From: Halothermothrix orenii H 168
GTDB taxonomy: Bacteria > Bacillota > Halanaerobiia > Halanaerobiales > Halothermotrichaceae
Direction: 5' to 3'
Assembly (NCBI RefSeq): GCF_000020485.1
Contig: NC_011899.1
Coordinates: forward strand, 1,830,501-1,894,500
DNA: 64,000 nt
A program made the translations under genes and the position numbers. A model generated the notes under the pieces. It had not been told where the DNA came from. It was given only the letters and a program-made list of their open reading frames with translations, and did no database searches. Of this stretch, positions 4,368-57,667 are shown piece after piece (positions within the stretch are counted from its first letter, which is position 1; every line of letters starts with the position of its first letter).

Positions 4368-5531
4368 TCAGGCTAAATTCTTTTGAAATTCATCTCCTGC
4401 ATTCAAAATCTCCTGGTAGCCTTCCAGTAATTTATCGGTCATAACCTCTATTGAGAAAGACTCTGCTTTCTTGAGGGCATTTTTCATAAAAAGGTTATAC
4501 CTTGTTTTATGGGTGATAAGATCAATAACAGCCTGGGCAAATATATGTTTTTTAGGTTTAACCAGTAAACCATTCAATCCATCATCTACCATAACTTTTG
4601 AGCCCGCTGCATTTACAGCTACTACTGGAAGCCCTCCGGCCATGGCTTCAATGGTAACCAGACCCTGGGTTTCTGTCATTGAAGGAAAAACAAAGAGATC
4701 ACCGGCCAGATAGAAATCAACAACCTTTTCCGGGGGTTGCCAGCCAGCAAATATAACCTTATTACCCAGGGAAAGCTCTTCTTTAAGCCTGACTAATTTC
4801 TGCCGCTGGGGGCCGTCTCCAACCAGCATTAGTTTAACATTGGTTAGATTATCAACAACTTCTTTAAAGACCTTCAATAGAAAAGCAACATTCTTCTCCT
4901 GGCCAAGACGACCTACAAATAATAAAACCTTTTCGTCATCCTTAATATTATACTTAGCCCTGACCCAGAGACCGTCCTTTTCCCGGTAAGGATTAAGGTC
5001 TATACCGGTCGATACAGTTTTAATCGGTGTGGTAATTCTGTATCCCCTGAGCATATTTTCTACAAATTTACTGGGGGCAATAACCAGATCACAGGACTGG
5101 CAATAATCCCTGCTGTACTTAATAGCTAGTTTACGGGCAATCTGCTGGCCAAAGGGAGCATAATGAGCATATTCCTCATACAGGGTATGGTATGTAAAGA
5201 CAAGGGGAATATCCAGTTTCCGGGCCACAAACCTGCCGAGCCATCCCATTAAAAAGGGAGAATGGGTATGTATAATATCGAGGCCGATCTCCTTTACCTC
5301 CTGAACCACCCGGGTGGATATTGGTATAGCAAGACGGAAGCCGGGATTGGTCAGGGCTGGTATCGACTTGAACCGGTAAATGTTATTTTCTTCCTCAGCT
5401 TCCGGATAATTAGGGGCAAAAATGTAGACCTCATGTCCCTTTTTCTGTAGCTGTTCTGTAAAGGTCTCAATTGACTTAACCACACCACTCATATATGGTT
5501 TATAGCTGTCAGTAAAAAAACCGATTTTCAT
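4368..5531 (-). CDS. GT4-family glycosyltransferase
   Basis: A 387-residue GT-B fold retaining glycosyltransferase. The N-terminal half shows the diacylglycerol-glucosyltransferase-like start GFFTDSYKPYMSGVVKSI and then DIIHTHSPFLMGWLGR. The C-terminal half has the nucleotide-sugar motif ETQGLVTIEAMAGGLPVV, with two Glu residues spaced as in GT4 enzymes, and the phosphate-contact segment LLFVGRLGQEKN. Closest families are the membrane glycolipid synthases that glucosylate diacylglycerol, but the acceptor cannot be read from sequence. Its ATG touches the stop codon of the GT9 gene, so the two are co-translated; both probably act on envelope glycolipids or LPS. Confidence 0.88.
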   Translation of the reverse strand: MKIGFFTDSYKPYMSGVVKSIETFTEQLQKKGHEVYIFAPNYPEAEEENNIYRFKSIPALTNPGFRLAIPISTRVVQEVKEIGLDIIHTHSPFLMGWLGRFVARKLDIPLVFTYHTLYEEYAHYAPFGQQIARKLAIKYSRDYCQSCDLVIAPSKFVENMLRGYRITTPIKTVSTGIDLNPYREKDGLWVRAKYNIKDDEKVLLFVGRLGQEKNVAFLLKVFKEVVDNLTNVKLMLVGDGPQRQKLVRLKEELSLGNKVIFAGWQPPEKVVDFYLAGDLFVFPSMTETQGLVTIEAMAGGLPVVAVNAAGSKVMVDDGLNGLLVKPKKHIFAQAVIDLITHKTRYNLFMKNALKKAESFSIEVMTDKLLEGYQEILNAGDEFQKNLA

Positions 5532-6614
5532 TTAGACACTACCCCCAGTTGAAATAAGTTTATAACCTGACCTTTTGTTAACTAATAACTGCCGGGCCGC
5601 TCTGACAACATCGGCTACCTCTATTTCCTCCATACACTTACCCTTACATTTAGTTACCCATTCTGGTAAATATTCAGGCAGGTATTGTTTTAAATCCCCC
5701 AACCAGGAAAAACAGGGGCTACAGGAGAGGTCAGAGCGAATTATAATGTGTTCAGTCCCATATGGATAAAAGTTTGCCGGATTGGTAGGGCCAAACAGAG
5801 AAACCACCGGTACCCCCACAGCTGAGGCCATATGCTGGGGAGCAGAATCATTTCCAATAAACAAATCAACCTGTTCCAGCAGGGCCGTAGTTTCCTTAAC
5901 CGATAACTCTCCGGCAACAATTACAGGTTTACGGTTATAATTATAATCAGGGTCAATAATCCGGGTGGCAAGTTCTCTATCATCAGGCCCTCCGACCAGA
6001 ACAACCTGAAGGGGTATCATTTTATCCAGGACCTTAACCAACTCAGAAAATTTATCCACTGGCCAGCGCTTTAAGGAGAAATATTTACCTCCAGGGTGAA
6101 TAGCCACCAGGGGTAAAGAAGTTATAATACCCTTTTTTTTCATAAATTCAGCCACAGACCGACGTTGTTCGTCATTTATTGCAACCTCGAGGTGAGGATT
6201 TATATCGGGTTTACCCCCTGCCACCTTTACAATCTCGAGGCAGTAATCGACGGCATGGATGTTTCTATCATCGGGTACATTGAAGTCATACATCCACCCT
6301 ATTTCAGAACCCTTGAAACCCAGCCTTTTTCTGGCATTAACCAGATATGCTATATAACTGCCTGCATTGGATAATCCAATGGCCAGGTCGTAAACCTCCT
6401 CCCTTAAGCTCTGAACATCGGAGATAAGCTTTCCTTTCCCTTTACTGACTATCAGCCTATCCAGGTTGGGGTTGCCTTCCAGAATAGTTTTATTATCTTC
6501 CCAGACCAGGGCATCTATTCTGGCATCCGGATAACCGTTCCTTAAAGCCCTGAGTGCCGGTGTCGTAAACAGGGCATCACCCAGAGCTGATAGAATTAAA
6601 ACAAGGATCTTCAC
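5532..6614 (-). CDS. GT9-family (heptosyltransferase-like) glycosyltransferase
   Basis: A 360-residue GT9 protein of the type that adds heptose to the LPS inner core. Seen: N-terminal LILSALGDALFTTPALRALR, the central AIHPGGKYFSLKRWP, the nucleotide-binding VVLVGGPDDRELA, and the signature IGNDSAPQHMASAVGVPVVS followed by LFGPTNPANFYPYG. The GTG start is 7 bases after GGGG. Heptose biosynthesis genes are not in this window, so the sugar donor is unknown; other GT9 enzymes use different sugars. The link to LPS comes from the lipid A and Lpt genes elsewhere in the window. Confidence 0.88.
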   Translation of the reverse strand: MKILVLILSALGDALFTTPALRALRNGYPDARIDALVWEDNKTILEGNPNLDRLIVSKGKGKLISDVQSLREEVYDLAIGLSNAGSYIAYLVNARKRLGFKGSEIGWMYDFNVPDDRNIHAVDYCLEIVKVAGGKPDINPHLEVAINDEQRRSVAEFMKKKGIITSLPLVAIHPGGKYFSLKRWPVDKFSELVKVLDKMIPLQVVLVGGPDDRELATRIIDPDYNYNRKPVIVAGELSVKETTALLEQVDLFIGNDSAPQHMASAVGVPVVSLFGPTNPANFYPYGTEHIIIRSDLSCSPCFSWLGDLKQYLPEYLPEWVTKCKGKCMEEIEVADVVRAARQLLVNKRSGYKLISTGGSV

Positions 6615-31523: not shown

Positions 31524-33224
31524 TTAAAAATTAATATTGACCCCGAGGCTTTCATTGACTAAATCAACTTCCAGGGAATAATTGAAACAATCATAATTTC
31601 TCTGAACTAACACTGTTCCACTTTCCCAAAAATTGCTGTAGAGGTTATATGAACCATTTAATTTTAATATCCACATAGATCCGGGTTCCGGTAGTTTATA
31701 CTTAAAACTAAGGCCCGGTTTTAATAATTTAACTTCTTCTGCTGTATCATCAGGCAAGAAAGGGTCCCCTTCAGTATTAACCATTTGAAATTTTAAATTT
31801 GAGTTTATATCTAAAGAGGTCCCGAGGTTAATTCCATAGTCAATACCAAGATTGGAATCATAAACTTTATAATCAGAAAAACTGCTATCTTTATAATATA
31901 AATTAGTTGTTACCTTTTCCTGAAAAGTAAGGTCAAGTCCTGTCGCTAACCTTAGTTTTTTGTCTATTAGCAGCTTGACAAGGCCTTTATCTGTAGTTAT
32001 CCCTTTATTGGTGACCCGGCCACCACCTGTAATGAACTTCAAATTAAATAGATTTAAATTATAACGGGGTGAGTATAACCTGATAAAGGGGAAAGAATCA
32101 ATATCATAACCTTTATTATACTTAAGTTCCCATTGATATCGGCCAATATGTCCATCTAACTTATAAAGTTGTTGTTCTAACATTTCATTGGTAAAACCAT
32201 GGTATAAGGTTATATTAGCTCTATTACTATAACGGTATTTTATATCCAGTTCTTCCTGGCGCTTCTCATCTATAAAATCATAACCCAGTAGTCCTGTAAC
32301 TTTCAATCTATTCCTTTTAAAACTTAAGCCACCCTTTAATAAACTATCTTTATTGATCTCATCATCTTCGAATTCCTTACTGTAAACATATCTGGTGGTG
32401 GCTACCAGGTCCGGGGTTATCTTATATCTATTCTCCAGAATAGCTTTCTGCCCTCCGACCTGGGTTGTTGAAGCATTTAATTTACCCTCGAGATTATTTC
32501 CATATTGATAGGGATAATATATACTTAAAATAAGTCCATCCTCTGTATTATAACCTAGAGAAGGAACAGGACTGGTATTATATAGTTCCTTCTTCCCTGT
32601 TTTTTCATCTTCTTTATATTCTACTACATAACCCGGTAGAGAAATTATCTTTACTTTTCCTATCCAGAACCCGACATCTTCACCAACTACCTTCTCATCA
32701 GGATAGATTTTAACCCGCTTCGCTTTAATCTGGTAATGAGGTTCATCCAGAATACATGGTGTAAAGCTGGCGTCCTCTATTTCAGCCCGGTATTCTTCTC
32801 CTTCAACCAGCCGGATTACCCCTCCCCGGAAGTTAAGGCTATCTATTTTCGTTTTTGCCTGAACCATAGTTCCTGAACCTGTTCCATAATTGTAAACCAG
32901 ACTCTTTCCGATAAGGGTCTCATCTTTAAGTATTAATTTGATACCACCCTCTGCTATTATTTCCTCTGCAGCCAGATTAACCTTTAGTTTCTGGCATTCT
33001 ATATTTAAATTATTAATCTTAAAACTAACATCTTTTGTGGCATAAATAAGCCCATTTTTTAAATCATACTGGATATCCCCGGCAGCTTTAAGGTCATAGG
33101 GGGCTACCTCTTCACTGCTGGCCTGAACAATATAAGAGCTAAATCCTGTTATTATAATTATAAGAATTATAAATAAAATAAAAAGCCGCCTAAATTCCTT
33201 TATTATCATTGTATTTTTAACCAT
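31524..33224 (-). CDS. lptD: LptD-like LPS-assembly outer-membrane protein
   Basis: LptD puts LPS into the outer leaflet. This 566-residue protein has an N-terminal hydrophobic signal (residues about 13-34), an OstA/LptA-like periplasmic domain (about 45-175: GDIQYDLKNGLIYATKDVSF, then NIECQKLKVNLAAEEIIAEG), and the conserved junction PCILDEPHYQIKAKRVKIYPD. A beta-barrel follows, ending SLGVNINF with terminal Phe. It is shorter than proteobacterial LptD (about 780) and has only two visible Cys, so the disulfide pattern differs. It lies outside the main cluster and is one of two LptD-like proteins here; the other is the C-terminal part of 52422-55544. Confidence 0.82.
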   Translation of the reverse strand: MVKNTMIIKEFRRLFILFIILIIIITGFSSYIVQASSEEVAPYDLKAAGDIQYDLKNGLIYATKDVSFKINNLNIECQKLKVNLAAEEIIAEGGIKLILKDETLIGKSLVYNYGTGSGTMVQAKTKIDSLNFRGGVIRLVEGEEYRAEIEDASFTPCILDEPHYQIKAKRVKIYPDEKVVGEDVGFWIGKVKIISLPGYVVEYKEDEKTGKKELYNTSPVPSLGYNTEDGLILSIYYPYQYGNNLEGKLNASTTQVGGQKAILENRYKITPDLVATTRYVYSKEFEDDEINKDSLLKGGLSFKRNRLKVTGLLGYDFIDEKRQEELDIKYRYSNRANITLYHGFTNEMLEQQLYKLDGHIGRYQWELKYNKGYDIDSFPFIRLYSPRYNLNLFNLKFITGGGRVTNKGITTDKGLVKLLIDKKLRLATGLDLTFQEKVTTNLYYKDSSFSDYKVYDSNLGIDYGINLGTSLDINSNLKFQMVNTEGDPFLPDDTAEEVKLLKPGLSFKYKLPEPGSMWILKLNGSYNLYSNFWESGTVLVQRNYDCFNYSLEVDLVNESLGVNINF

Positions 33225-40764: not shown

Positions 40765-41862
40765 TTACTTGTTCATCCGGTAAATCATATATCCACCCAC
40801 TATCAGGAAAATAAAATTCTGGAGCCAGGCCCCGAAAAAGGGAGAGATAGTTCCCCTTTCTCCGAGGGCACTCCCGAGGGTCATAATCGTATAATAAATA
40901 AAGATAACAATAATGCTTAACCCCATACCGGTAGCTGTACCACCGGACCGCCTTGGCTTTATACCGAGCGGGGCCGCCAGCAGGGCAAAAATAAAACTGG
41001 CAAATGGTATGGCTATTTTCTGGTGATATTTAACCCTCTCCTCAAAGGTATCTTTCCCCTGTTCTTCCAGGAATTGAATATATTCGCCGAGCTCTTTAAA
41101 ACTCATATCTTCAATATCTTTATTCATCTTTCCAATCCGGCGGGGAGTATAAATGGGTTGTTTAATCACATATTCATTAAATTTTAAAGCAGGGACCCTT
41201 TCCCCTTCTTTAAAATAATAGATATTTCCATTATAAAAATGCCACTTATCCCCCTGCCAGACTGCTTTACGGGCTTTAATAAGGGTAACAGGTACCCCTT
41301 TCTCGTAATCCTGAAGATAGACATCGTTCATGATCCCCGTTTCCCCATTAAAGCGGTGAGTGTAAAGGATATAATCAGGGCGGCGGTATTTCCTGTCAAG
41401 AGGAGTCAGGGTTAAATCATACTGGGTAGCAGGCATCTTTCTTCCATTTTTTATCTCCCAGACTATTTGATCATAAAGGTAGTTAGCCCGGGGAACAACC
41501 ATTTCATTGACCATAATAGTGGTAACACTCATAATTAACCCCACCAGCAATGATGGGATAACTATTTTATAGACACTCACCCCTCCGGCCCTGAAGGCAG
41601 TTATTTCACCGTCACCCGACAGCCTGCCAAAGGACATCAGGGTTCCCATCAGGGTAGCCATCGGGAATGTCAGTACTATGATAGGAGGTAGCTTTAAAAA
41701 AAATAGCTGGACTAATGTAGTAAACTCCACTCCAAAGTTATTATATAACCTGGTCAGGGTAAATAGAATATCTGTTCCGATAAAAATAGCTGTAAAAGCT
41801 GCCACCCCGAATAGAAAAGGCATTATAAGTTCCCTGGTTAAATAACGGTATATTATCTTCAA
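40765..41862 (-). CDS. LptF/LptG-type LPS export permease
   Basis: An inner-membrane permease of the YjgP/YjgQ family, 365 residues from the TTG at 41862, which follows GAGGTG by 9 bases; the ATG 12 codons upstream has no site. Six transmembrane segments are seen, three near the N-terminus (first: TRELIMPFLFGVAAFTAI) and three near the C-terminus, around a periplasmic beta-jellyroll. Conserved: PMATLMGTLMSFGRLSGDGE, then ITAFRAGGVSVYKI, and AAPLGIKPRRSGGTATGMG. With LptB it extracts LPS from the inner membrane. Whether it is F or G cannot be told; the second permease appears to be the N-terminal part of 52422-55544. Confidence 0.92.
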   Translation of the reverse strand: MKIIYRYLTRELIMPFLFGVAAFTAIFIGTDILFTLTRLYNNFGVEFTTLVQLFFLKLPPIIVLTFPMATLMGTLMSFGRLSGDGEITAFRAGGVSVYKIVIPSLLVGLIMSVTTIMVNEMVVPRANYLYDQIVWEIKNGRKMPATQYDLTLTPLDRKYRRPDYILYTHRFNGETGIMNDVYLQDYEKGVPVTLIKARKAVWQGDKWHFYNGNIYYFKEGERVPALKFNEYVIKQPIYTPRRIGKMNKDIEDMSFKELGEYIQFLEEQGKDTFEERVKYHQKIAIPFASFIFALLAAPLGIKPRRSGGTATGMGLSIIVIFIYYTIMTLGSALGERGTISPFFGAWLQNFIFLIVGGYMIYRMNK

Positions 41863-41977
41863 TTGGTACGGCACCTCGCTTATATGAGGGTCTCCCATAA
41901 TAAATTTATTTAATTATTTGACTCAATTCTCTATCTGAATTATATGGAAAACTTCCTGCATGAAGTATGCAAAACCC

Positions 41978-42697
41978 CTACATGGTAAACCTTTCACCCA
42001 GATAAAACTTCCGGGCCAGTTCACTTTCAGCCACCTCTTCAGAACTCCCTGACAGCAATATCTGCCCCTGGTGCATTATATAGGCCCTGTCGGTAATTGA
42101 AAGGGTCTCCCGGACACTATGGTCGGTAATTAAAACCCCGAGCCCCCTCTTTTTAAGGTAACTTATTATATTCTGGATATCTGTTACCGCAATAGGGTCA
42201 ACCCCGGCAAAGGGTTCATCAAGTAAAATAAATGAAGGGTCTGTTGCCAGGGCACGGGCAATCTCAACCCTTCTCCTTTCTCCACCGGAAAGCTGATATC
42301 CCAGTCTATCCTCAAGATGGCCTATATTAAATTCTTCCATAAGTTCATTTAATTTCGATTCAGACTCCTGTGGAGAGAAACCCCGGGCCTGAAGTATTGC
42401 CAGAATGTTTTCCCTGACCGTCAGTTTCCTGAAGACAGAAGGCTCCTGGGACAAATAACCAATACCTTTGCGGGCCCTTTTATAAACCGGTAAATGGGTT
42501 ATATTATCATCATCCAGGTAAATCTCTCCACCATCAGGTTTTATTAACCCGACGACCATATAAAAGGTGGTTGTTTTACCGGCACCGTTAGGCCCTAAAA
42601 GCCCGACAATCTCTCCTTTTTTAACCTTTAAATTTACTTTATTGACAACCTTCTGACGACTGTATATTTTGAGTAAATTTTTAGCTATAATACTCAT
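41978..42697 (-). CDS. lptB: LPS export ABC transporter ATPase LptB
   Basis: A 239-residue ABC ATPase that powers LPS export. Walker A GPNGAGKTTTFYMVVGL, Q-loop YLSQEPSVFRKLTV, signature LSGGERRRVEIARALA, Walker B FILLDEPFAGVDPIAV and switch LITDHSVRETL are all intact. The Q-loop segment EPSVFRKLTVRENI is diagnostic for LptB against other branched-chain-type ATPases. Its start overlaps the lptA stop by four bases (ATGA), implying translational coupling. Order: lptC, lptA, lptB, then an LptF/G permease. Confidence 0.96.
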   Translation of the reverse strand: MSIIAKNLLKIYSRQKVVNKVNLKVKKGEIVGLLGPNGAGKTTTFYMVVGLIKPDGGEIYLDDDNITHLPVYKRARKGIGYLSQEPSVFRKLTVRENILAILQARGFSPQESESKLNELMEEFNIGHLEDRLGYQLSGGERRRVEIARALATDPSFILLDEPFAGVDPIAVTDIQNIISYLKKRGLGVLITDHSVRETLSITDRAYIMHQGQILLSGSSEEVAESELARKFYLGERFTM

Positions 42698-43353
42698 TTG
42701 TCCTCACCTGTATCCTGTGGAAATAAGAGGCTCGCATTCCCGGACAGGATTATCTGCTCCCGGGAAAGATCAATTTTTAAGGTATTACCAGAAAACTCAT
42801 GACCATCCTGCTTTCCGGAAACATTCCCCTCAAGATAAACAGTCTCCTCCCTGTAATTATAGGTAAGTTTATCAGAAACTGCCTTTATCCCCTTATATTC
42901 AATAGAAGTTTTACCCGTAATTACGGCAACCTCTTTACTCCGGTCAAGGTCTATGACATTTCCGGTAAGGAGTATATTATCTCCCATAAGACTGATATTA
43001 CCATCAATATTAAACTTACCCTTATTAATGTTCCCCTTCAACGTATCTCCTTTTAAGGTATATTCAGGAGTACTGATTTTTCCCAGGTTATAAACCTCCA
43101 AATCTTCAGTACGGGTATTAAACTTTAGTCTATCACCGGTCACTGTATAGTCTTTATAAATAAGGGTAACATTACCTCTGGCTTTTATATCATAAAAATA
43201 ATTTTCAATATCAACTGTAAAAGTATCAGCCAGTAATTCAGGGCGCCTTCCTTCACTATAGACCCTTACTACCACTGGAGATATCATATAAGTAAGATAT
43301 AATATAAGTATAAATAATATAAGTGCCCACCTGTTAATTTTTCTGACTGGCAT
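42694..43353 (-). CDS. lptA: LptA/OstA-like LPS transport protein (membrane-anchored)
   Basis: A 219-residue protein with an N-terminal hydrophobic anchor or signal (residues about 9-27) and repeated OstA-type beta units: ADTFTVDIENYFYDIKARGN, then YTVTGDRLKFNTRTEDLEVY, GDNILLTGNVIDLDRSKEV, and GHEFSGNTLKIDLSREQIIL. LptA is the periplasmic bridge that carries LPS between membranes. Proteobacterial LptA is a little shorter and is cut from its signal; no clear cleavage site is seen here, so it may stay anchored. It overlaps lptC by 20 bases upstream and lptB by four downstream. Confidence 0.85.
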   Translation of the reverse strand: MPVRKINRWALILFILILYLTYMISPVVVRVYSEGRRPELLADTFTVDIENYFYDIKARGNVTLIYKDYTVTGDRLKFNTRTEDLEVYNLGKISTPEYTLKGDTLKGNINKGKFNIDGNISLMGDNILLTGNVIDLDRSKEVAVITGKTSIEYKGIKAVSDKLTYNYREETVYLEGNVSGKQDGHEFSGNTLKIDLSREQIILSGNASLLFPQDTGEDK

Positions 43354-43930
43354 GACTTTCCTCCTTCCAGGTCAATCGGGCCTGTTTGCCCTGGTTACCG
43401 TGTATCATAACTAGACCTGACCCGGGGGCTGCCTCCATTTTATCTCCCTCAATAGTAAATCGGGGGAGGTCGAGCTTAACCCCACCTTTGCCTGTAATTA
43501 TATCACTATTTTCCTTCCAGCACAAAGAACCACTATTTAAAGTTATCATATCCTTTTGCAATACCACCGGCCCGGAGACCCTTAATTCTCCCCGGTCGGC
43601 AAGGTAGAGCCCATTTTGGCCACTAAAAGTATAAAGCAATTCCTCGGTTTTATTATCCCTGACTTTAACCTCTATACCAGTCATATCAATAGTCTTATTA
43701 TTATCCCGGTTAGTAACATTACTGGACGAAACTTCAAGGCGAATATCTTTACTTTTACTATAAAGGGTAAGCCTGGCCCCCTTTAATTCCCGGTAAGTTC
43801 CCGTCTGTTTATCAGGGGTGGATTCAGGGTTATCTGAGGTGTTGATTCCGGCCCGGAAGGTGAAAAACACCCCTGCCACCATAATAGATAAAACTATTAA
43901 AATTATTAAAACTTTTTTGCCGGTAAACAA
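43334..43930 (-). CDS. lptC: LptC-family LPS transport protein
   Basis: A 198-residue bitopic protein: transmembrane segment at residues about 7-25, then a periplasmic beta-jellyroll (GARLTLYSKSKDIRLEVSSS, GIEVKVRDNKTEELLYTFSG, GGVKLDLPRFTIEGDKMEA). LptC passes LPS from the LptB-F-G complex to LptA. The size, single anchor and position directly before lptA and lptB support the call; sequence conservation in LptC is low. The frame opens with a TTG behind a weak GGTTGG, so the exact start is uncertain. The last 20 bases overlap lptA. Confidence 0.83.
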   Translation of the reverse strand: MFTGKKVLIILIVLSIMVAGVFFTFRAGINTSDNPESTPDKQTGTYRELKGARLTLYSKSKDIRLEVSSSNVTNRDNNKTIDMTGIEVKVRDNKTEELLYTFSGQNGLYLADRGELRVSGPVVLQKDMITLNSGSLCWKENSDIITGKGGVKLDLPRFTIEGDKMEAAPGSGLVMIHGNQGKQARLTWKEESHASQKN

Positions 43931-48221: not shown

Positions 48222-48956
48222 TTAATAGTAATTTATGATGCTTTTATACTTTTTTCCTATCCATGATACCGGTGACTCAAGAACCTCATCGGGTGGCCCG
48301 GACTCAATAAATTTACCTTTGTCCATAAAATATATTTTATCGGCCACCCGGCGGGCAAAAGCTACCTGGTGAGTTACAATAATCATGGTAGTCTGCTTTT
48401 TCTGGCGGACAATTTCTTCCAGAACATCGAGGACTTCAGTAACCAGAATAGGGTCCAAGGAAGCTGTCGGTTCATCCATCAAAATTAAATCAGGTTCCAT
48501 AACAAGGGCCCTTGCTATCCCGACCCGTTGCTTTTCACCACCGCTGAGATTTTTCACCTCAGTGTCTGCCAGCTCCTTAAGGCCAACATCCTTCAGGGCC
48601 AGTCTCGCCTTATCCTCAGCTTCTTTGATACTAAAACCTTTTTTTATCAGGCCCAGGGCTACATTCTGCCTGACCTTAAGCCTGTCTATCAAATTAAAAT
48701 GCTGAAAGACAAAACCAATATTCTGACGAACCTCTTCCATGTCTCCTTCACTGAGTTTATGGAGGGGTGTTCCCTTAAAATATACTTCCCCTCCGTCAGG
48801 TTCGACAAGCCTGTTTATACAGCGGATAAAAGTAGATTTGCCACACCCACTCGGGCCCATAATGGCAATAATTTCACCCGGGCGGGCCTGTAAATTAACA
48901 CCATTTAATATCATATCACTGCCGTATTGTTTTTTCAAATTAATTACTTCCAGCAT
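48222..48956 (-). CDS. ABC transporter ATPase, polar-amino-acid (GlnQ) subfamily
   Basis: A 244-residue ABC ATPase. Walker A GPSGCGKSTFIRCINRL, Q-loop FVFQHFNLIDRL, signature LSGGEKQRVGIARALV, Walker B LILMDEPTASLDP, and His switch IVTHQVAFAR. The sequence resembles polar amino-acid uptake ATPases, but no substrate-binding protein or normal permease is nearby. The only partner is the large membrane protein at 49127-51481. Being embedded between lipid A and Lpt genes suggests envelope lipid or glycolipid traffic; that is inference. The ATG follows GGGGGATAAAATA. Confidence 0.85.
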   Translation of the reverse strand: MLEVINLKKQYGSDMILNGVNLQARPGEIIAIMGPSGCGKSTFIRCINRLVEPDGGEVYFKGTPLHKLSEGDMEEVRQNIGFVFQHFNLIDRLKVRQNVALGLIKKGFSIKEAEDKARLALKDVGLKELADTEVKNLSGGEKQRVGIARALVMEPDLILMDEPTASLDPILVTEVLDVLEEIVRQKKQTTMIIVTHQVAFARRVADKIYFMDKGKFIESGPPDEVLESPVSWIGKKYKSIINYY

Positions 48957-49050
48957 TATTTTATCCCCCTGTTATATATTTAAATTCCATATATAATTAT
49001 AAATTTCATACTAACGATTGATTTTCAAATTTTAAGCGGTTTTCAAATTC

Positions 49051-49093
49051 GTCAGCCAGTTTGACGGCCATAAAAAACCAATTAAGAAAGACC
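49051..49093 (-). repeat. Intergenic 3' repeat, copy R6
   Basis: Plus-strand anchors are GTCA at 49051 and AAAGACC at 49087, here 36 bases apart, with CCAGTTTGACGGCCATAAAA between. It lies 34 bases beyond the stop of the large permease gene. Confidence 0.55.
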
Positions 49094-49126
49094 TGATAAT
49101 TATTGTGAACCGGAAACAAAATAGCC

Positions 49127-51481
49127 TTACTTAAATATCATTTTAGGGAGGTTTAATAAATATAGTAAACCCGGTTTACCCGACGGAATAATTATTTCAT
49201 GCATAATCCCGGCTGGAGAAAAGCCGAGGGCCTTACCCGCTTCCCACTCTTCTTTTTTTACCGGGTTTAACATCCCGGAGAGAAGGGCCATTATTAGCCC
49301 GATAACCCCACCTATCAAAAACTCAATATTAAAGTTAAGGTAGGGGAAATTGATCCTGCTCAAAAGGCAGATCAGGCTAAAGGTAAGTCCACCAACAACA
49401 AAACTGTAGACATATCCCCGTCCTCCATTTAATTTAATTACACTGACTATCAGGGTCTGGTCAAGCATCATTACCAGGAGGGTAAAAATCAAAGCTATTA
49501 TTGTTGAAATAACAGCCTTAACCTGGCTTAATATCCTAAATAACTCTCCCCGGGGATTGGGCTGTAAAATACCTGATTCCATTTCGAAAAAGCTTACCGA
49601 GGGATTATTAACTATACCCTTTACCTCTTCCCTCAATTCCTGGTTTTTATAATTACCACTGACTAAAAGCTGAATCTGGTCTCCGGGTATCACCTGCCCG
49701 GCCAGGTAACTATCGATTAACTCTATTGTTTCGACAATCTCCTTATCCTCCATCTCCGGTAAGGAATTTTGAATATAGGTCAGCTGTTCCATAATTACAG
49801 GGATCTGGCCGTTTTTTAACTCAACCATTAAATCCCGGACAGATGTCAGGTTATTCTCTATATTTGCAGTATCAATAACCCGGGCTGATTCTTCTATTTT
49901 ACTGGCAATCTCACCGATATCATCATAATTTACATTATCATTCAGGGTATTCTCAACCTTCAGTAATGACTTTATTTTATCCTGCCAGGTATCTATTGAA
50001 GCCACCATCGAATTATTTCCGTCTATCTGCCTAGAGATTAAATCGTAATTTTGATCCAGGGTGGTAGAAAGCTTAAGAAAGAGGTTTTTTAAATCATTAA
50101 GTTCATTATATAGATTATTCCTGGGAACAAAAACAAGTTTTTCTTCAATCAGGCCCGCTATCTCCTTTAACTGGTTACTGGTAGTTATAAGTTCGGTTTT
50201 AATATTTTCAAGGTCACCTATATTTCTCTCAATATCGTCAAGAACGGCAAGCAGGTCATAAAGAAAAACGGTCAATCCTTCTTTTCTCCATTCATCCAGG
50301 GTTTTATTGAGTTTACGACTGGTTTCTTCAACCCGGGCCAGGCCTTCATTAATATTCTTCAGGTCTTTACCGATACGATCACTGTGGGTTATTAACTCTT
50401 CACTCTGCTCCAGAAACGAATTTAGCCTCGGGGTAATTTCATTAAGGCTTTCCAGGGCTTCAGCCAGATCCTGTCTGGGGTTATTAATCCTACCCTGACC
50501 AATATAAGTAATCCCATTTTCACTATTATGATAATAAACCTTTAAACTACTTTTGTCAGCAGCAAGGCTCCCATTCTGGACCAGACAGGTAATACGATTA
50601 TCTTTATTATTGATAATCTTTAAAAGAATCTTTTCTCCATCTTTATTCCGGGCAGTTAAGATCCCCCCGACAGAGTAGCGGGAACTATCTTCCACTTCAG
50701 AAATAATAACAGTAGTAGCATATGACAAGAGGAAATCTTTCATCTGCTTTAAACTATTTAAAAGAGAAACCCGGTCAGAACTAACAGTACCGGTAACATC
50801 ATATACCTTAATCCCATCTATTTCGTCTTTGATTTTACCTATTATCTTTTTCTTTTTCTTTTCCATGTCCTCGGGATGCTGGTTTAAGGGATAACGAATC
50901 TCAAGGAGTTTATATTCTCCCAGGATACGATTAATTTGTTCTTTAACCCGGGGAACCAGTTCCGGACTTTTAACAATTACGTCAATCCCATTCCCGATGG
51001 GATAAAGAAAATCAATACCTTCTATTTTCTCTATCCGGGGCCTGATAACAGGGAGGGTTTCTCCCCTGAAACCCCTGATTGAAAGCCGCGGTTCTGTTAT
51101 TATATTTTTACTCATAATCCCGGGAATGTCGGAAAAGTATGTGTATATCCTGGAGTAAACCTCCTCTTTTTTAAACTCTTCCGGTATTTTAAGGAGGTAA
51201 TTACTACTCCCGGCCACCCGGGGACCTGCCTTTAAAACAGAGCCCGGCAGGGTCGAATCAACAACTTTTTTTATCTGTTCCAGGGCAATATTTTCTTTAT
51301 CCCCGGACAGGATAAACAGGAGGTCATACTCACCATATTCCCCGATTACACCACTGACCATGTGGGAAAAATAATTTTTGGTAATATATCCTCCGGTAAG
51401 TACAAGAATGGTACCAATAAGTACAGTAATTATAAATAGAACTAGCAGGTCTTTTCTGAAATCGGTTTTTAGTATAAACAT
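49127..51481 (-). CDS. Large ABC permease-like protein with huge extracytoplasmic coiled-coil domain
   Basis: A 784-residue protein I cannot place in a named family. One transmembrane helix at residues about 10-35 leads to an extracytoplasmic region of some 600 residues. Its second half (about 330-590) is coiled-coil (RIGKDLKNINEGLARVEETS; NIGDLENIKTELITTSNQLK). Three more hydrophobic segments follow (about 645-745). The C-terminus carries an ABC-permease EAA-like loop, EWEAGKALGFSPAGIMHEII then IPSGKPG. The EAA loop usually contacts the ATPase, and the ATPase gene is the next gene downstream. The ATG at 51481 is 8 bases after GGGAG. Confidence 0.7.
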   Translation of the reverse strand: MFILKTDFRKDLLVLFIITVLIGTILVLTGGYITKNYFSHMVSGVIGEYGEYDLLFILSGDKENIALEQIKKVVDSTLPGSVLKAGPRVAGSSNYLLKIPEEFKKEEVYSRIYTYFSDIPGIMSKNIITEPRLSIRGFRGETLPVIRPRIEKIEGIDFLYPIGNGIDVIVKSPELVPRVKEQINRILGEYKLLEIRYPLNQHPEDMEKKKKKIIGKIKDEIDGIKVYDVTGTVSSDRVSLLNSLKQMKDFLLSYATTVIISEVEDSSRYSVGGILTARNKDGEKILLKIINNKDNRITCLVQNGSLAADKSSLKVYYHNSENGITYIGQGRINNPRQDLAEALESLNEITPRLNSFLEQSEELITHSDRIGKDLKNINEGLARVEETSRKLNKTLDEWRKEGLTVFLYDLLAVLDDIERNIGDLENIKTELITTSNQLKEIAGLIEEKLVFVPRNNLYNELNDLKNLFLKLSTTLDQNYDLISRQIDGNNSMVASIDTWQDKIKSLLKVENTLNDNVNYDDIGEIASKIEESARVIDTANIENNLTSVRDLMVELKNGQIPVIMEQLTYIQNSLPEMEDKEIVETIELIDSYLAGQVIPGDQIQLLVSGNYKNQELREEVKGIVNNPSVSFFEMESGILQPNPRGELFRILSQVKAVISTIIALIFTLLVMMLDQTLIVSVIKLNGGRGYVYSFVVGGLTFSLICLLSRINFPYLNFNIEFLIGGVIGLIMALLSGMLNPVKKEEWEAGKALGFSPAGIMHEIIIPSGKPGLLYLLNLPKMIFK

Positions 51482-51572
51482 ATCCTCCACTCCCATCCAA
51501 ACCCTATTATACCATCCTATGGAAGGGAGTGTAAATGTTATCCAGCAACCAATTTATGGATATTGGTTGTAT

Positions 51573-52235
51573 CTATTCGGAGGTTATTTTTAGCTCTATT
51601 TCAACTTCTCCTTCGGCCTCAAATTCACCTGTTTCCAGGTTAAAGACCGCTTTTTTGCTCTGAATCCAGTCTCCATCCTTTTCCTGGACCTTTACATCAT
51701 CATACAACTCCAGGGTTTGCTTTTCATCACTGTAGACCGCTCTATCACCCTTTATAACCCGGTTATCATACTTGATAGTTACCCCATTGCGGGCCACAAA
51801 TGAATTATCAGCAGTAGATAATTCAAGATAAGGGGCCTTAAGCTCCATTTCTTTGGGCCCATCTGCCCCTTTTTCTTTAACCTGATAAAATAACTCGACA
51901 TTATCCTCAAAAATATAAATATCTTTATTTAATAAAACTGTCAGCATTTTACTATTGATATCCCCGTCTTTCCGGGTAAGTTTAACCCCACCTTTAAGAA
52001 TGGCCTTCTCTTCTTTTTCGTAATAAGTACCCCGGGGAGCGGTAATTTTATTCTCCCCTTTTATTATGGTAACCCCCCTTGAGAGGAACATCTCCCCTTC
52101 AGAAGATTTATATAACCCTGTTTTAATAGTTACTGTATCCTGAGAAGTATCTGCAGCCAACCCGGTATTACAGGTCACAACCAGGTTAATTACCAGAAGA
52201 AAAGCAATAATAATGCCTGTAGGATATTTCTTCAT
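51573..52235 (-). CDS. Second LptA/OstA-like periplasmic protein
   Basis: A 220-residue exported protein. The signal peptide ends in GLAAD (residues about 1-28). Repeated OstA-type strands follow: ITAPRGTYYEKEEKAILKGG, GDINSKMLTVLLNKDIYIFE, LELSTADNSFVARNGVTIKY and FNLETGEFEAEGEVEIELKI. With a cleavable signal it looks like a free periplasmic LptA, whereas the copy at 42694 looks anchored. It lies between the LptFG-LptD fusion gene and the large permease, so it may bridge either one. OstA-fold proteins are called by pattern, so exact role is inferred. Confidence 0.8.
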   Translation of the reverse strand: MKKYPTGIIIAFLLVINLVVTCNTGLAADTSQDTVTIKTGLYKSSEGEMFLSRGVTIIKGENKITAPRGTYYEKEEKAILKGGVKLTRKDGDINSKMLTVLLNKDIYIFEDNVELFYQVKEKGADGPKEMELKAPYLELSTADNSFVARNGVTIKYDNRVIKGDRAVYSDEKQTLELYDDVKVQEKDGDWIQSKKAVFNLETGEFEAEGEVEIELKITSE

Positions 52236-52421: not shown

Positions 52422-55400
52422 TTAATTTATACCCAGCAGGTCCTTGATACCAACATCAAACATAAATGATTCTTCGCGGCTGGTACCAAATTTAAAACCC
52501 TGATCCGGAAAGAGGTCCAGTCTATATTCAACAGTAAATTCTTCCTTGAGGTAATCATAGGCAAACCATAATTCCCGGCAGTGGAAGTCCTTTTTTACAG
52601 CCAGGTTGGCCTGCTTTATATCATTGTTGACATAATCAAAACTGGCATTGACTTCAACATACCAGTTTTCTTCCAGCTCATAAGTAAGTTTACTATCCCA
52701 GGCCATAAGCTTATTATTATCAGGATCAAAGGTCAACGCTGTATTATTCAGCCATCTACCGTCACTATATTTACTCTTGAGAGCAAAAGTACCATAAGAA
52801 TTATTATTTAAATCATAGGTTGTTCCGGCACTTACCTCCCAGTCAGGTGTTATCTGCCATTCCAGAATGGCGCTTATGGGGAGATACCGGTAATTATATA
52901 TATCAAAGCCACCTTTAAGCTCGAAATCAAAATCACCCTTTTGATAAGTCAATTTATTCCTGATCTCTTCCCGGGGCTTTACCTCGTCAAAATTAAAGGG
53001 GGTAGCCCCCAGGGGCCAGGTATAGGAATATGTGTTATCCAGTTCCAAACGAGAAGTAATGTCAATATTAAGCCCAATCCGGCTATCATAAGAAAAAAGG
53101 TAGGGCAACTCACTGTAACCGGAGTAAATCACATCATTATCTTCTTCCACGGTGTTTTTAACCCTGTAATAACGTCCCTTAATACCCTGATTAAAAGTAA
53201 CCCGGGTCTTTTTTATCGGTGACCATTTACGATAATAATTAAGCCCTCCTGAAGCCCGGTAACCCTCTATCCCCGAATCGTCTTCATAATAGTTACCGAA
53301 GACAGCCTCACCGGAAAAGCCACCCCCGAACGTGTAATTATAAGAAAGCTCTGGCCAGCGATAGAAAGAAACTTCGTCTTCAGCACTTAGTTTAGGGTCA
53401 TATCTCTCTAAAAGAAGTTTCATCTTATATTTATTACCGGTTTTCTGCAAATAACTCTTACTCCCCCATCTCGATTTTAAACCATCTTCCGGGTTTAGCA
53501 GGTAGTCCCGGTTATATATAAGATTGATATACCAGCCACTCCCGAAATTATACCGATAGGAGAAATCAACATCCAGGTTTATATCATCATCAGTGTTACC
53601 GGTAAAATAATCCCTGGAATCAAAGCTTGAAGCAAGATTTAATTTTCCCTTACCTTCATTATTACTTAAATTGATGTGTCCCCTGGTATAATGGTAATTG
53701 TCATACCTTGTATACTTTAAATCAGTATCCGTTTTCCAGCTGCCGATATTATCATAATATTCCAGGGCTCCCTGCCAGTCAAATAGCCCTGAAATCTTTT
53801 CCCGGTTTTCCTGGGAATAAAAATACACCGAAGCTTTCAGATCTGGCCTATAGACCAGATACTGTTTAAATCCTCCTGCATAACCCGAACGGGTATAATA
53901 ATCAATATAAAGCTCTCCGGGGAGTTCTTTTTTATACCAGTAATAATAGGTTGCTTTAACAAACCAGCCCCGTCGGGCATTATGTCCAACCCGGGGAATT
54001 AACCGGTTGGTCTTTTCCTTAAGGGAAATATATAAATAAGGCCAGTAAAACAAAGGGAGTTTACCATTGAGCTCCCAGAAGGTAACATGTTTTGCTTCCA
54101 GGTGGTCATCTGGGTAGATAATAACCTCCCTGGCCCTGAAAAAATAGTGGGGTTTATCAAGGTCACACCCAGTAAAGCGGGTCTGACTGACAATAACCTC
54201 CTGAGGACTGGAATCTATATCTTCACTACCATCTTTTTGTTTTATGGTAACCCGGTCTGCTATAAGATACAGTTTGCCGAATTCCCCACTGACATCACCG
54301 GTAATCTCGACCAGCTTTTCCTCAAAACCATGGTATTTATAATTATCGGCTTTAAGTTTAAGGGACCCGGCAGACGCTGGAGAAGGAAAAAAAATTAACA
54401 TAATTATAAAAAACACCGGTAAAAACACCAGCAATTTCCTCAGAAGATTACGCCATGACTCCCGCCAGATGAGAAGGGTAATCCCGATAATACTGAATAT
54501 TATATTCGGGAGCCAGGCAGCCAGCACTGGATCAAGCCTTCCGTTCCGGCCGAATGACCGGGACAAAGACATGACAAAATAATATAAAAAGACAACGACA
54601 ATTGTGAAAATAATACTAAAGGACCGGCTGTCCTTACTGGTCAGGCTTAAGGGAGTTCCAATCAGTATGAAAATCAGGGCAGCCAGAGGCATGGATAGTT
54701 TCAGGTGGTAATCGACCAGTAAAGAGTGAACATCGATCCCGCTGTTCTGAAACAGGTCTATCTCCTTTTTAAGCTCTTCACGACTCATTTCATCAGGGGT
54801 CTTTTGATCAGCAAAAAAGTTGTGGACCTCTGTATTTATTTTAATCTCCATAACATCAAACCGGGTCTCCATGGTAAGATGACCTTCACCATTATAACGG
54901 TGGATAAACCCCTTTTTTAAAACCCATTTTTCCTTATAGACTTCACCCAGATTGGCTGTTACAATAAGGGGATAGCCATTGTCTCCTTTAAAGGTATATA
55001 CCACTATTTTCTTCATAATATTATCCTCTTTGTCAAACCTGCCAACGTAAAAGAGACGCCCGTCCGGGCCTTTAAAAAAGACATTTTCCTTTATATCTGG
55101 AGGGACTTCTTTAAGAACAGATTTCCTTATAATATTCTGGGCCCGGTGTTTGGTCCAGGGGACTATCTCCTCATTTAGTAGGTAAGTCATACCACTGATA
55201 ACAATTCCCAGAATCAACAGGGGTAGAATTAACCGGTAAAGGCTGATTCCTCCCATCCTCAGGGCCGTAAATTCGTTTTCACGGTTAAGCCGACCCATCC
55301 CGGACATGGTTGCAAATAAAATTGCAATAGGAAAGGTCTGGACAATAATCTCAGGTAATTGATACAAAAGAAGTTTTAATACCACTGCCACGGGGATTTT

Positions 55401-55544
55401 CTTAATAATAATTAAATCACTTAACTGGCGTAACAATCCACTCAGCATGATAACCCCGATAATACTGACACCTATTAAAAATGGGTATAAGACTTCTTTT
55501 ATTATATATACATCAATAATCCTTTTGCTCCATAATTTCTTCAT
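52422..55544 (-). CDS. Fusion protein: LptF/LptG-type permease joined to LptD-type barrel
   Basis: One open frame of 1040 residues. Residues 1-370 are an LptF/G permease (IIKEVLYPFLIGVSIIGVIM; ETF-like QTFPIAILFATMSGMGRLNR; FTALRMGGISLYRL; IGTPLSLTSKDSRSFS), six membrane segments around a periplasmic domain. Residues 371-392 look like an internal signal peptide: basic RESWRNLLRK, a hydrophobic stretch, then PSPASA. Residues 393-1040 are LptD-like: OstA domain (about 395-500, with CDLDKPHYFFRAREVIIYPD) and a beta-barrel to the end. Signal peptidase cleavage after Ala392 would free the two parts. No frameshift or internal start is seen. Confidence 0.88.
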   Translation of the reverse strand: MKKLWSKRIIDVYIIKEVLYPFLIGVSIIGVIMLSGLLRQLSDLIIIKKIPVAVVLKLLLYQLPEIIVQTFPIAILFATMSGMGRLNRENEFTALRMGGISLYRLILPLLILGIVISGMTYLLNEEIVPWTKHRAQNIIRKSVLKEVPPDIKENVFFKGPDGRLFYVGRFDKEDNIMKKIVVYTFKGDNGYPLIVTANLGEVYKEKWVLKKGFIHRYNGEGHLTMETRFDVMEIKINTEVHNFFADQKTPDEMSREELKKEIDLFQNSGIDVHSLLVDYHLKLSMPLAALIFILIGTPLSLTSKDSRSFSIIFTIVVVFLYYFVMSLSRSFGRNGRLDPVLAAWLPNIIFSIIGITLLIWRESWRNLLRKLLVFLPVFFIIMLIFFPSPASAGSLKLKADNYKYHGFEEKLVEITGDVSGEFGKLYLIADRVTIKQKDGSEDIDSSPQEVIVSQTRFTGCDLDKPHYFFRAREVIIYPDDHLEAKHVTFWELNGKLPLFYWPYLYISLKEKTNRLIPRVGHNARRGWFVKATYYYWYKKELPGELYIDYYTRSGYAGGFKQYLVYRPDLKASVYFYSQENREKISGLFDWQGALEYYDNIGSWKTDTDLKYTRYDNYHYTRGHINLSNNEGKGKLNLASSFDSRDYFTGNTDDDINLDVDFSYRYNFGSGWYINLIYNRDYLLNPEDGLKSRWGSKSYLQKTGNKYKMKLLLERYDPKLSAEDEVSFYRWPELSYNYTFGGGFSGEAVFGNYYEDDSGIEGYRASGGLNYYRKWSPIKKTRVTFNQGIKGRYYRVKNTVEEDNDVIYSGYSELPYLFSYDSRIGLNIDITSRLELDNTYSYTWPLGATPFNFDEVKPREEIRNKLTYQKGDFDFELKGGFDIYNYRYLPISAILEWQITPDWEVSAGTTYDLNNNSYGTFALKSKYSDGRWLNNTALTFDPDNNKLMAWDSKLTYELEENWYVEVNASFDYVNNDIKQANLAVKKDFHCRELWFAYDYLKEEFTVEYRLDLFPDQGFKFGTSREESFMFDVGIKDLLGIN

Positions 55545-55879: not shown

Positions 55880-57667
55880 ATGTTTACTAGAGTTACATAT
55901 GTTTTAAGGAAACCCGGAGTTGGACAGGTGACCTTAGCCCTGAAACTATTTATTCTATCCATAATATTGATGTTTTCTCTATCAGCCTGTTCACCCATAA
56001 CTCAGGATTATTCTGACACCGGATATGGAATAATCAAGGGTAAGGTTACCCTTGGTGAACCCAATTCCTCAACTGTTAATAAAATTATTCATCCGGTAAA
56101 TATCAATAAGAACTTAAATTCAATTCCACTGGCCACTTCTTCTATCTCTACCGCCCACACCCCCGGAGTCTATATACTTAAACTGGCTGAAACCTTAAGT
56201 TACAGCTCTCTTAAAAAAAATATTTTGCAGGGTAAGGCCAGGCCCATAGAAAAAATTGCTAAAAACACATATAAAATTAAAATTGAAGGGACCCGGTCCC
56301 CGGGACAGTTAATAACTAATATGGAAAAAAATCCAATGGTAGAATACATCGAGCCTGACTATCTGGTCCATATTCAGGCAATTCCTGATGATACCTATTA
56401 CCCCCGCCAGTGGAATTATAAAATTCTCAATATGGAAAAGGTATGGGAACATTACCACGGCAGTGAGGACATAACTGTAGCCGTTATCGACACCGGTATC
56501 CTTCCGGGACACCCTGACCTTCAGGGAAGGATAACAGCAGGTTATGATTTTGTTGACAATGATACTGACCCGACCGATACCTCACCTGATTTTAGTCATG
56601 GAACCCATGTAGCCGGTATCATCGGGGCCGTAACCAATAATAGTGAAGGGGTATCCGGCTTCAACTGGAATATTAAAATAATGCCCATCAGGGTAATCGG
56701 CCCTGATGGAAGTGGGGGGTATAGCTCCCTTATATCAGGGATAAGGTGGGCTGTGGACCATGGTGCAGATGTCATCAACCTTAGCCTGGCAGGCCCCAGT
56801 AGTTCATATTCCCTTGAAGAAGCCGTTAATTATGCCGTGGATAATGGGGTTACCGTTGTTGCCGCAGCCGGTAATAATGGTACAAGCCCGATTTTATACC
56901 CGGCCCGGTACTCCCGGGTAATAAGCGTTGGAGCCGTAGGGCCAGAACTGGATAGGGCCTACTATTCAAATTATGGAGAGGACCTTGATGTTGTAGCTCC
57001 GGGTGGAGACAGCAGTATTCCGGTCCCTGATAATAACATATTAAGTACAGCCGGTTATATGTCCGGTTCAAAACCGGTCCACCAGTACACCTGGGCTCAG
57101 GGCACTTCCATGGCAGCACCGCATGTCACGGGACTGGTGGCCCTGCTATATAGTGCCGGTTATAGTAACCCCTCATATATTGAAGACATTCTAAAAGAAA
57201 CAGCCAGGGACCTGGGTCAACCGGGAGCTGATGGAGAGTATGGAGCTGGACTTATAAACCCTGTAAGAGCTCTGGGATTAGCACCAGATAGTAATACTGA
57301 TAGTAATAATAATTTTAGCAATGATAGCAGTACCGGCCTTAACAACAAAGATAGTAATAATAAAAGTAGTAATAATGGGGCCAGTACCTATTCTTTAAGT
57401 GAAATAAAAATATACATCCTTGATAATAACTTTAATGGTAAAACCCTGGATTATGTTGAGGAGGCCAGGCCAATTACGACCCCTGATGTTTACGGCAACT
57501 ACTCCATTAAAGTTAGAAAAGGAGTCTGGACAGTAATAGGATGGCTTGATACAAATAACAACCACGTTGTTGACCGGGGTGACTATTACGGTCAGGCAGA
57601 AGATATCGTTTCTTCTTCCGACTATTCCCCGGTTATCGTAAATATTGACCTGAATATAAGGTCCTGA
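55880..57667 (+). CDS. Subtilisin-like serine protease lipoprotein (S8 family)
   Basis: A 595-residue exported subtilase. The N-terminal hydrophobic stretch (about 20-36) ends in a lipobox FSLSAC, so it is probably lipid-anchored. A propeptide-like region (about 80-160) has PGVYILKLAETLSY and VEYIEPDYLVHI. The catalytic Asp is in VAVIDTGILPGHPDL, His in SHGTHVAGIIGA and Ser in GTSMAAPHVTGLVAL. A Ser/Asn-rich linker leads to a C-terminal beta domain (GWLDTNNNHVVDRGDYYGQA) that may bind calcium. A GGAGG site precedes the ATG. It lies between two outer-membrane operons on the opposite strand. Confidence 0.93.
   Translation: MFTRVTYVLRKPGVGQVTLALKLFILSIILMFSLSACSPITQDYSDTGYGIIKGKVTLGEPNSSTVNKIIHPVNINKNLNSIPLATSSISTAHTPGVYILKLAETLSYSSLKKNILQGKARPIEKIAKNTYKIKIEGTRSPGQLITNMEKNPMVEYIEPDYLVHIQAIPDDTYYPRQWNYKILNMEKVWEHYHGSEDITVAVIDTGILPGHPDLQGRITAGYDFVDNDTDPTDTSPDFSHGTHVAGIIGAVTNNSEGVSGFNWNIKIMPIRVIGPDGSGGYSSLISGIRWAVDHGADVINLSLAGPSSSYSLEEAVNYAVDNGVTVVAAAGNNGTSPILYPARYSRVISVGAVGPELDRAYYSNYGEDLDVVAPGGDSSIPVPDNNILSTAGYMSGSKPVHQYTWAQGTSMAAPHVTGLVALLYSAGYSNPSYIEDILKETARDLGQPGADGEYGAGLINPVRALGLAPDSNTDSNNNFSNDSSTGLNNKDSNNKSSNNGASTYSLSEIKIYILDNNFNGKTLDYVEEARPITTPDVYGNYSIKVRKGVWTVIGWLDTNNNHVVDRGDYYGQAEDIVSSSDYSPVIVNIDLNIRS

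Follow-up and report, generated by a model that had tools for sequence, protein, structure and literature searches.

Halanaerobiales are two-membrane bacteria and kin of the Gram-positives. In E. coli, the export of LPS requires both LptF and LptG. A polyprotein that is cut by signal peptidase is known from Bradyrhizobium, namely the cytochrome b-c1 polyprotein FbcH.

In the survey of Antunes et al. (2016; PMC5007114), one LptF/G was reported for Halanaerobiales and Negativicutes, and LptD/E were not found in these groups. The LptD of Veillonella was found later at a separate locus (PMC5491611), and lptD and lptE have been listed as never found in atypical diderms (PMC8871954). Whereas the published survey of Halanaerobiales thus lacks a recognisable LptD, two LptD-like proteins are described here, one of which is hidden in a permease gene. 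Two LptDs in Halanaerobiales would bear on the debate whether the outer membrane of Firmicutes is ancestral.

The window, i.e., the whole stretch of 64,000 nucleotides of Halothermothrix orenii H 168 that was analyzed and that spans positions 1830501-1894500 of the chromosome, contains a single frame on the minus strand, which runs from an ATG at 55544 to a stop codon at 52422 without internal stop codons (Table 1). From the sequence alone, these 1040 residues had been read as an LptF/G permease joined to an LptD, which was borne out by profile and Foldseek searches of both halves (see below) and by the occurrence of the same single frame, termed lptF2-lptD2, in 22 of 61 related genomes, a count that takes in one copy interrupted by a contig end. 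In a separate scan of named genomes, the frame was found in Halanaerobium saccharolyticum, H. kushneri, Fuchsiella alkaliacetigena, Candidatus Frackibacter and many Halanaerobiales MAGs. The LptF/G-LptD fusion is a true, conserved gene of Halanaerobiales. A sequencing or assembly error concealing a stop codon between the halves is excluded as its source, since one frame is seen in 22 independent assemblies, some of them from isolates of Halanaerobium, Fuchsiella and Frackibacter. A literature search, covering mainly open-access papers, yielded no description of an LptF/G-LptD fusion. Its product is probably a polyprotein that is cut by signal peptidase I and whose permease half and LptD half (LptD2) belong to a second, accessory Lpt set beside a core set.

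Table 1. Features of the fused gene and of the Lpt genes in the window.
Feature	Position	Strand	Evidence or remark
Fused gene lptF2-lptD2, 1040 aa	52422..55544	-	Single frame in 22 genomes and in named genomes
Permease domain of the LptF/G family with six hydrophobic segments, residues 13-359	54468..55508	-	PF03739, TIGR04408/TIGR04407, Foldseek
Junction, residues 361-392: basic stretch, then seventh hydrophobic segment with AxA site; predicted cleavage after Ala392	54369..54464	-	Sequence; conserved in 21/21
In-frame GTG (residue 373), best candidate for an internal start	54426..54428	-	Weak AGGA 8 nt upstream; not conserved
Shortened LptD N-terminal jellyroll (predicted), about residues 393-507	54024..54368	-	LptD/LptA-chain profile match, model strands, length comparison
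LptD beta-barrel (predicted), about residues 510-1021	52482..54017	-	AF2 C-terminal half pLDDT 82; Foldseek top 37 all LptD
Cys460	54165..54167	-	Aligned to E. coli LptD Cys173
Cys989	52578..52580	-	Near the C-terminus, as E. coli Cys724/725
lptA2, LptA/LptC-like, signal-peptide-like N-terminus	51573..52235	-	PF06835 E 1e-11, PF03968 E 4e-8; next gene
lptD1, second LptD-like protein (566 aa), encoded separately	31524..33224	-	A1 profile E 1.8e-12; NF002997 E 9e-4
Core LptF/G permease (LptF/G-1)	40765..41898	-	PF03739 E 5e-103
LptB, the sole one above cut-off in the genome	41978..42697	-	TIGR04406 368 bits
Core LptA-like protein	42694..43353	-	PF03968 E 1e-7
Core LptC	43334..43930	-	PF06835 E 5e-6, TIGR04409 39 bits

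The permease half (LptF2) matches PF03739 over its full length (profile positions 2-352 of 353, residues 13-359, E 6.1e-103). With 201 of 240 bits against TIGR04408 (LptG) and 186 of 230 bits against TIGR04407 (LptF), it stays under both equivalog cut-offs, and according to these profiles it is a member of the LptF/G family that is not assignable to F or G. The predicted model of the full protein matched LptG (6mjp_G) in a Foldseek search with an E value of 1.4e-11. Like LptF and LptG of LptB2FGC, LptF2 has the complete domain, six hydrophobic segments and the periplasmic jellyroll. Unlike them, it scores below the equivalog level, lptB is not adjacent to its gene, and the fused protein adds a seventh segment and an LptD. 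In three near-complete genomes (G041, G048 and G050, with loci L053, L054 and L055), LptF2 is found alone, without LptD2, from which it follows that LptF2 can have a function separate from its barrel.

Taken alone, the C-terminal half of the window protein matched no curated LptD family model in single-sequence scans against Pfam and NCBIfam; no Pfam family scored above its cut-off, and LptD_N was reached with E 0.07 only. The curated LptD barrel model PF04453, which covers few lineages and was positive in just two of 14 control genomes, had no match in the genome. These scans were set aside as uninformative for a sequence of this divergence. A profile built from 28 homologous C-terminal halves found the PDB LptD 8h1r (E 1.4e-9) as well as 5iva, 7omm and several LptA chains, and the corresponding halves of relatives match NF002997 (LptD, 3.7e-9) and PF19838 (2.7e-6) as single sequences. 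The AF2 model of the full-length protein is of low confidence (pLDDT 63), its best Foldseek matches still being LptD and LptG. For the separately modelled C-terminal half, LptD was found throughout the 37 top Foldseek matches (best E 8e-20) at moderate TM-scores of 0.4-0.5. VIA-align was dropped as a discriminator because other large barrels score equal to LptD, and the barrel alone is accordingly less specific evidence; that LptD is a fast-evolving family was also counted as a weakness of the assignment. By the profile of the 28 halves and by its predicted fold, the C-terminal half is an LptD.

The LptDs 8h1r, 4q35 and 7omm share with LptD2 an N-terminal jellyroll, a large barrel and an LPLFYWPY-type motif, whereas the N-terminal domain of LptD2 is shorter and contributes to a protein with two Cys instead of four. 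Two further differences from known LptDs are that LptD2 is encoded in frame behind a permease and that LptE was not found in the genome by PF04390, a model that was positive in just three of 14 controls, so that a divergent LptE is possible. The two Cys, 460 and 989, are the only ones in the fused protein, and each is conserved in 27 of the 28 halves. Cys460 aligns with E. coli Cys173 within TSC / TGCD in a single-sequence hhalign comparison that is weak overall (E 0.007) and usable in the Cys173 region only. The second Cys lies close to the C-terminus as in E. coli LptD, where hhalign leaves the exact register to Cys725 loose. Cys460 and Cys989 may form a disulphide bond.

A closely similar locus is found in Halobacteroidaceae-type genomes. 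There, lptF and lptD are neighbours that often overlap or are separated by about 10 nt, and the gene order is lptF2, lptD2, a membrane-anchored protein of ~205 aa, lptA2. The anchored protein has an LptC-like architecture; a match to the LptC family was not found. The genes and their order are those of the fused locus. The differences are that lptF and lptD form separate frames there, the LptD having its own start and signal peptide, and that the anchored protein is encoded additionally between lptD and lptA. In these unfused outgroups, the ordinary N-terminal signal peptide of LptD is located at the place homologous to the fusion junction. Relatives thus keep one frame in the 22 genomes mentioned and two adjacent genes in the outgroups, and the possibility that homologues always carry two separate genes does not apply.

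At the junction of the window copy, residues 360-392 read WRESWRNLLRKLLVFLPVFFIIMLIFFPSPASA, followed by G, and nt 54369 is the last nucleotide of the Ala392 codon. The seventh hydrophobic stretch (residues 367-385) has a mean hydropathy of 2.5, which is the maximum of the protein; a basic segment stands before it and PSPASA-G after it. The basic stretch, the hydrophobic core and the Ala-Ser-Ala site that the sequence-only reading had pointed out are therefore present, and the junctions of the homologues likewise take the n-h-c form of an internal signal, in which a hydrophobic core is preceded by basic residues and followed by a small-x-Ala motif; in a few of them (L004, L009) the predicted cleavage site is less canonical. 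In a motif count, which serves as a simple control and involves no trained predictor, a small-x-Ala site follows the seventh segment in 21 of 21 homologues and each of the six permease segments in 0-4 of 20-21. The polyprotein cut after Ala392 that had been put forward as a possibility is the best reading of this conserved motif, and signal peptidase I, for which the genome has one gene, is the predicted enzyme.

According to the proposed mechanism, the chain would consist of the LptF/G-type permease, an internal signal peptide that also serves as seventh transmembrane segment, and LptD, in this order. Judging from the known LptF/G structure, the C-terminus of the permease should lie in the cytoplasm, and segment 7 would carry the chain outward to the periplasm. 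Cleavage by signal peptidase I after Ala392 would free LptD (residues 393-1040) for insertion into the outer membrane by the Bam machinery; an Omp85/BamA gene is present within the window. The permease, left behind in the inner membrane, would work in an extractor driven by LptB, and LptA2, encoded by the neighbouring gene, would bridge it and LptD2. FbcH of Bradyrhizobium resembles this arrangement in that an inner-membrane protein, an internal signal peptide and an exported protein are joined in frame, but neither product of FbcH leaves the inner membrane, whereas LptD2 would reach the outer membrane. In the literature search, no precedent paper for such polyproteins cut by signal peptidase was found, FbcH included. 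The fused protein would be a conserved bacterial polyprotein with products in different membranes, and equimolar synthesis of exporter and translocon could be tested directly.

Two proteins could also be obtained by internal translation initiation at the junction instead of proteolysis. The window copy offers an in-frame GTG for this, with an AGGA upstream (Table 1). In four homologues (L018, L020, L021 and L022), however, the junction window contains no in-frame ATG, GTG or TTG, and a Shine-Dalgarno match is missing in most of the others. Internal initiation is therefore very improbable, and it was ruled out as a conserved device. It is even harder to believe that the processing is done by another protease such as the adjacent S8 subtilase. 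Nine of 20 fused loci and also one unfused locus have a subtilase gene as a neighbour, and the window subtilase is a predicted lipoprotein; the remaining fused loci have no such neighbour, however, and the junction looks like a site for signal peptidase I. In the window, the S8 subtilase with its lipobox (LSAC) is encoded at 55880-57667 (+), divergent from the adjoining fused gene.

Cleavage by signal peptidase I also has to be weighed against an uncut product, in which the seventh segment would be a stable anchor and the inner-membrane permease and the outer-membrane barrel would form a covalent bridge across the envelope. The single conserved frame agrees with such a bridge, and the seventh segment is hydrophobic enough for a stable anchor. 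Between anchor and barrel, however, there are only ~115 residues of jellyroll, where a bridge would want a longer spacer, and in fused copies ~66 residues lie between the signal peptide and the conserved Cys, compared with ~118 in unfused outgroups. Moreover, the AxA site is kept in all 21 homologues, and an LptA/C-like gene directly follows the fused gene in every fused locus. The two halves have also been split apart again in descendants: in G001 and G008, LptD is a free protein that carries a signal peptide of its own and has the short N-terminal domain of the fused copies, again with ~66 residues up to the Cys. The halves thus do not need to be physically linked, and this speaks for cleavage where they are fused. 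The barrel staying linked across both membranes, which the sequence-only reading had named as the alternative, is therefore improbable. The same holds for an uncut or late-cut product that would exist as one covalent trans-envelope chain during assembly, act as a lipid exporter made in one piece and couple delivery of the barrel to assembly of the permease.

In the permease tree, the fused sequences are nested within the unfused ones, and parsimony gives four state changes, some of the supports being modest. This is compatible with one fusion and about three later splits. Since the fusion was apparently gained and then lost several times, natural pairs are available for comparison.

Besides the fused gene, the window contains a complete core set, which consists of LptF/G-1, LptB, LptA and LptC at 40765-43930 and of the separately encoded LptD1 (Table 1). 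LptD1, which Pfam does not recognise, carries a signal peptide of its own, and Cys residues are present both in its N-terminal domain and close to its C-terminus. Matches to LptD1 were obtained in 57 of 61 genomes, in some of which the search can also pick up LptD2. LptD1 is probably the core LptD that the survey of Halanaerobiales had missed. An initial assumption that the genome has no LptD besides the fused one was dropped once LptD1 had been found.

Ten relatives with a completeness of at least 98% (G002, G007, G014, G015, G020, G023, G026, G032, G034 and G035) have LpxC, LptF/G-1 and LptD1 and lack both LptF2 and LptD2, so that LptF/G-1 can probably do without the fused protein in these genomes. 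The absence of the fused gene from relatives is no proof that the two Lpt sets are independent. Judged by this gene distribution, general LPS export is likely the task of the core set, and the fused set is likely accessory. With a single LptB in the genome, both sets probably use this one. By default from family membership, the cargo of the second set would be LPS or a related glycolipid.

The permease half had been taken for the missing second LptF/G partner, a claim that was not upheld in view of the complete core set with LptD1 and of the ten relatives without the fused gene. In its strict form, it would make LptF2 an obligate partner of LptF/G-1 in one LptB2FG exporter and the fused LptD the main LPS translocon. 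The need of E. coli for both LptF and LptG, the single LptB and the retention of LptF2 without LptD2 in G041, G048 and G050 speak for such a partnership. It is nevertheless unlikely given the ten relatives, which keep LpxC, LptF/G-1 and LptD1 without either half, and given the single LptF/G of these groups in the published survey (PMC5007114). The LptD of Veillonella (Vpar_0647; PMC5491611), compared by its published description only, is likewise an LptD of a diderm Firmicute that is encoded away from the core lpt cluster, but it is described as a separate, unfused gene.

Downstream of lptA2, a GlnQ/PhnC-like ABC ATPase and a 789-aa protein are encoded at 48222-51496 (-), as in about six relatives. 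The 789-aa protein contains a coiled coil and has a weak permease match; the ATPase (48222-48956) was rejected as a second LptB by NCBIfam comparison. In family f11 (L036, L042-L048), two LptF2-type permease paralogues stand in tandem before an unfused lptD2 and possibly form a dedicated heterodimer. One genome with a fused gene has a second LptF2 copy (L052, G038:C18:225000-235000, gene 4835-6028 (-)), whose frame stops within the seventh hydrophobic segment and which is likely a relic of a split or truncated fusion.
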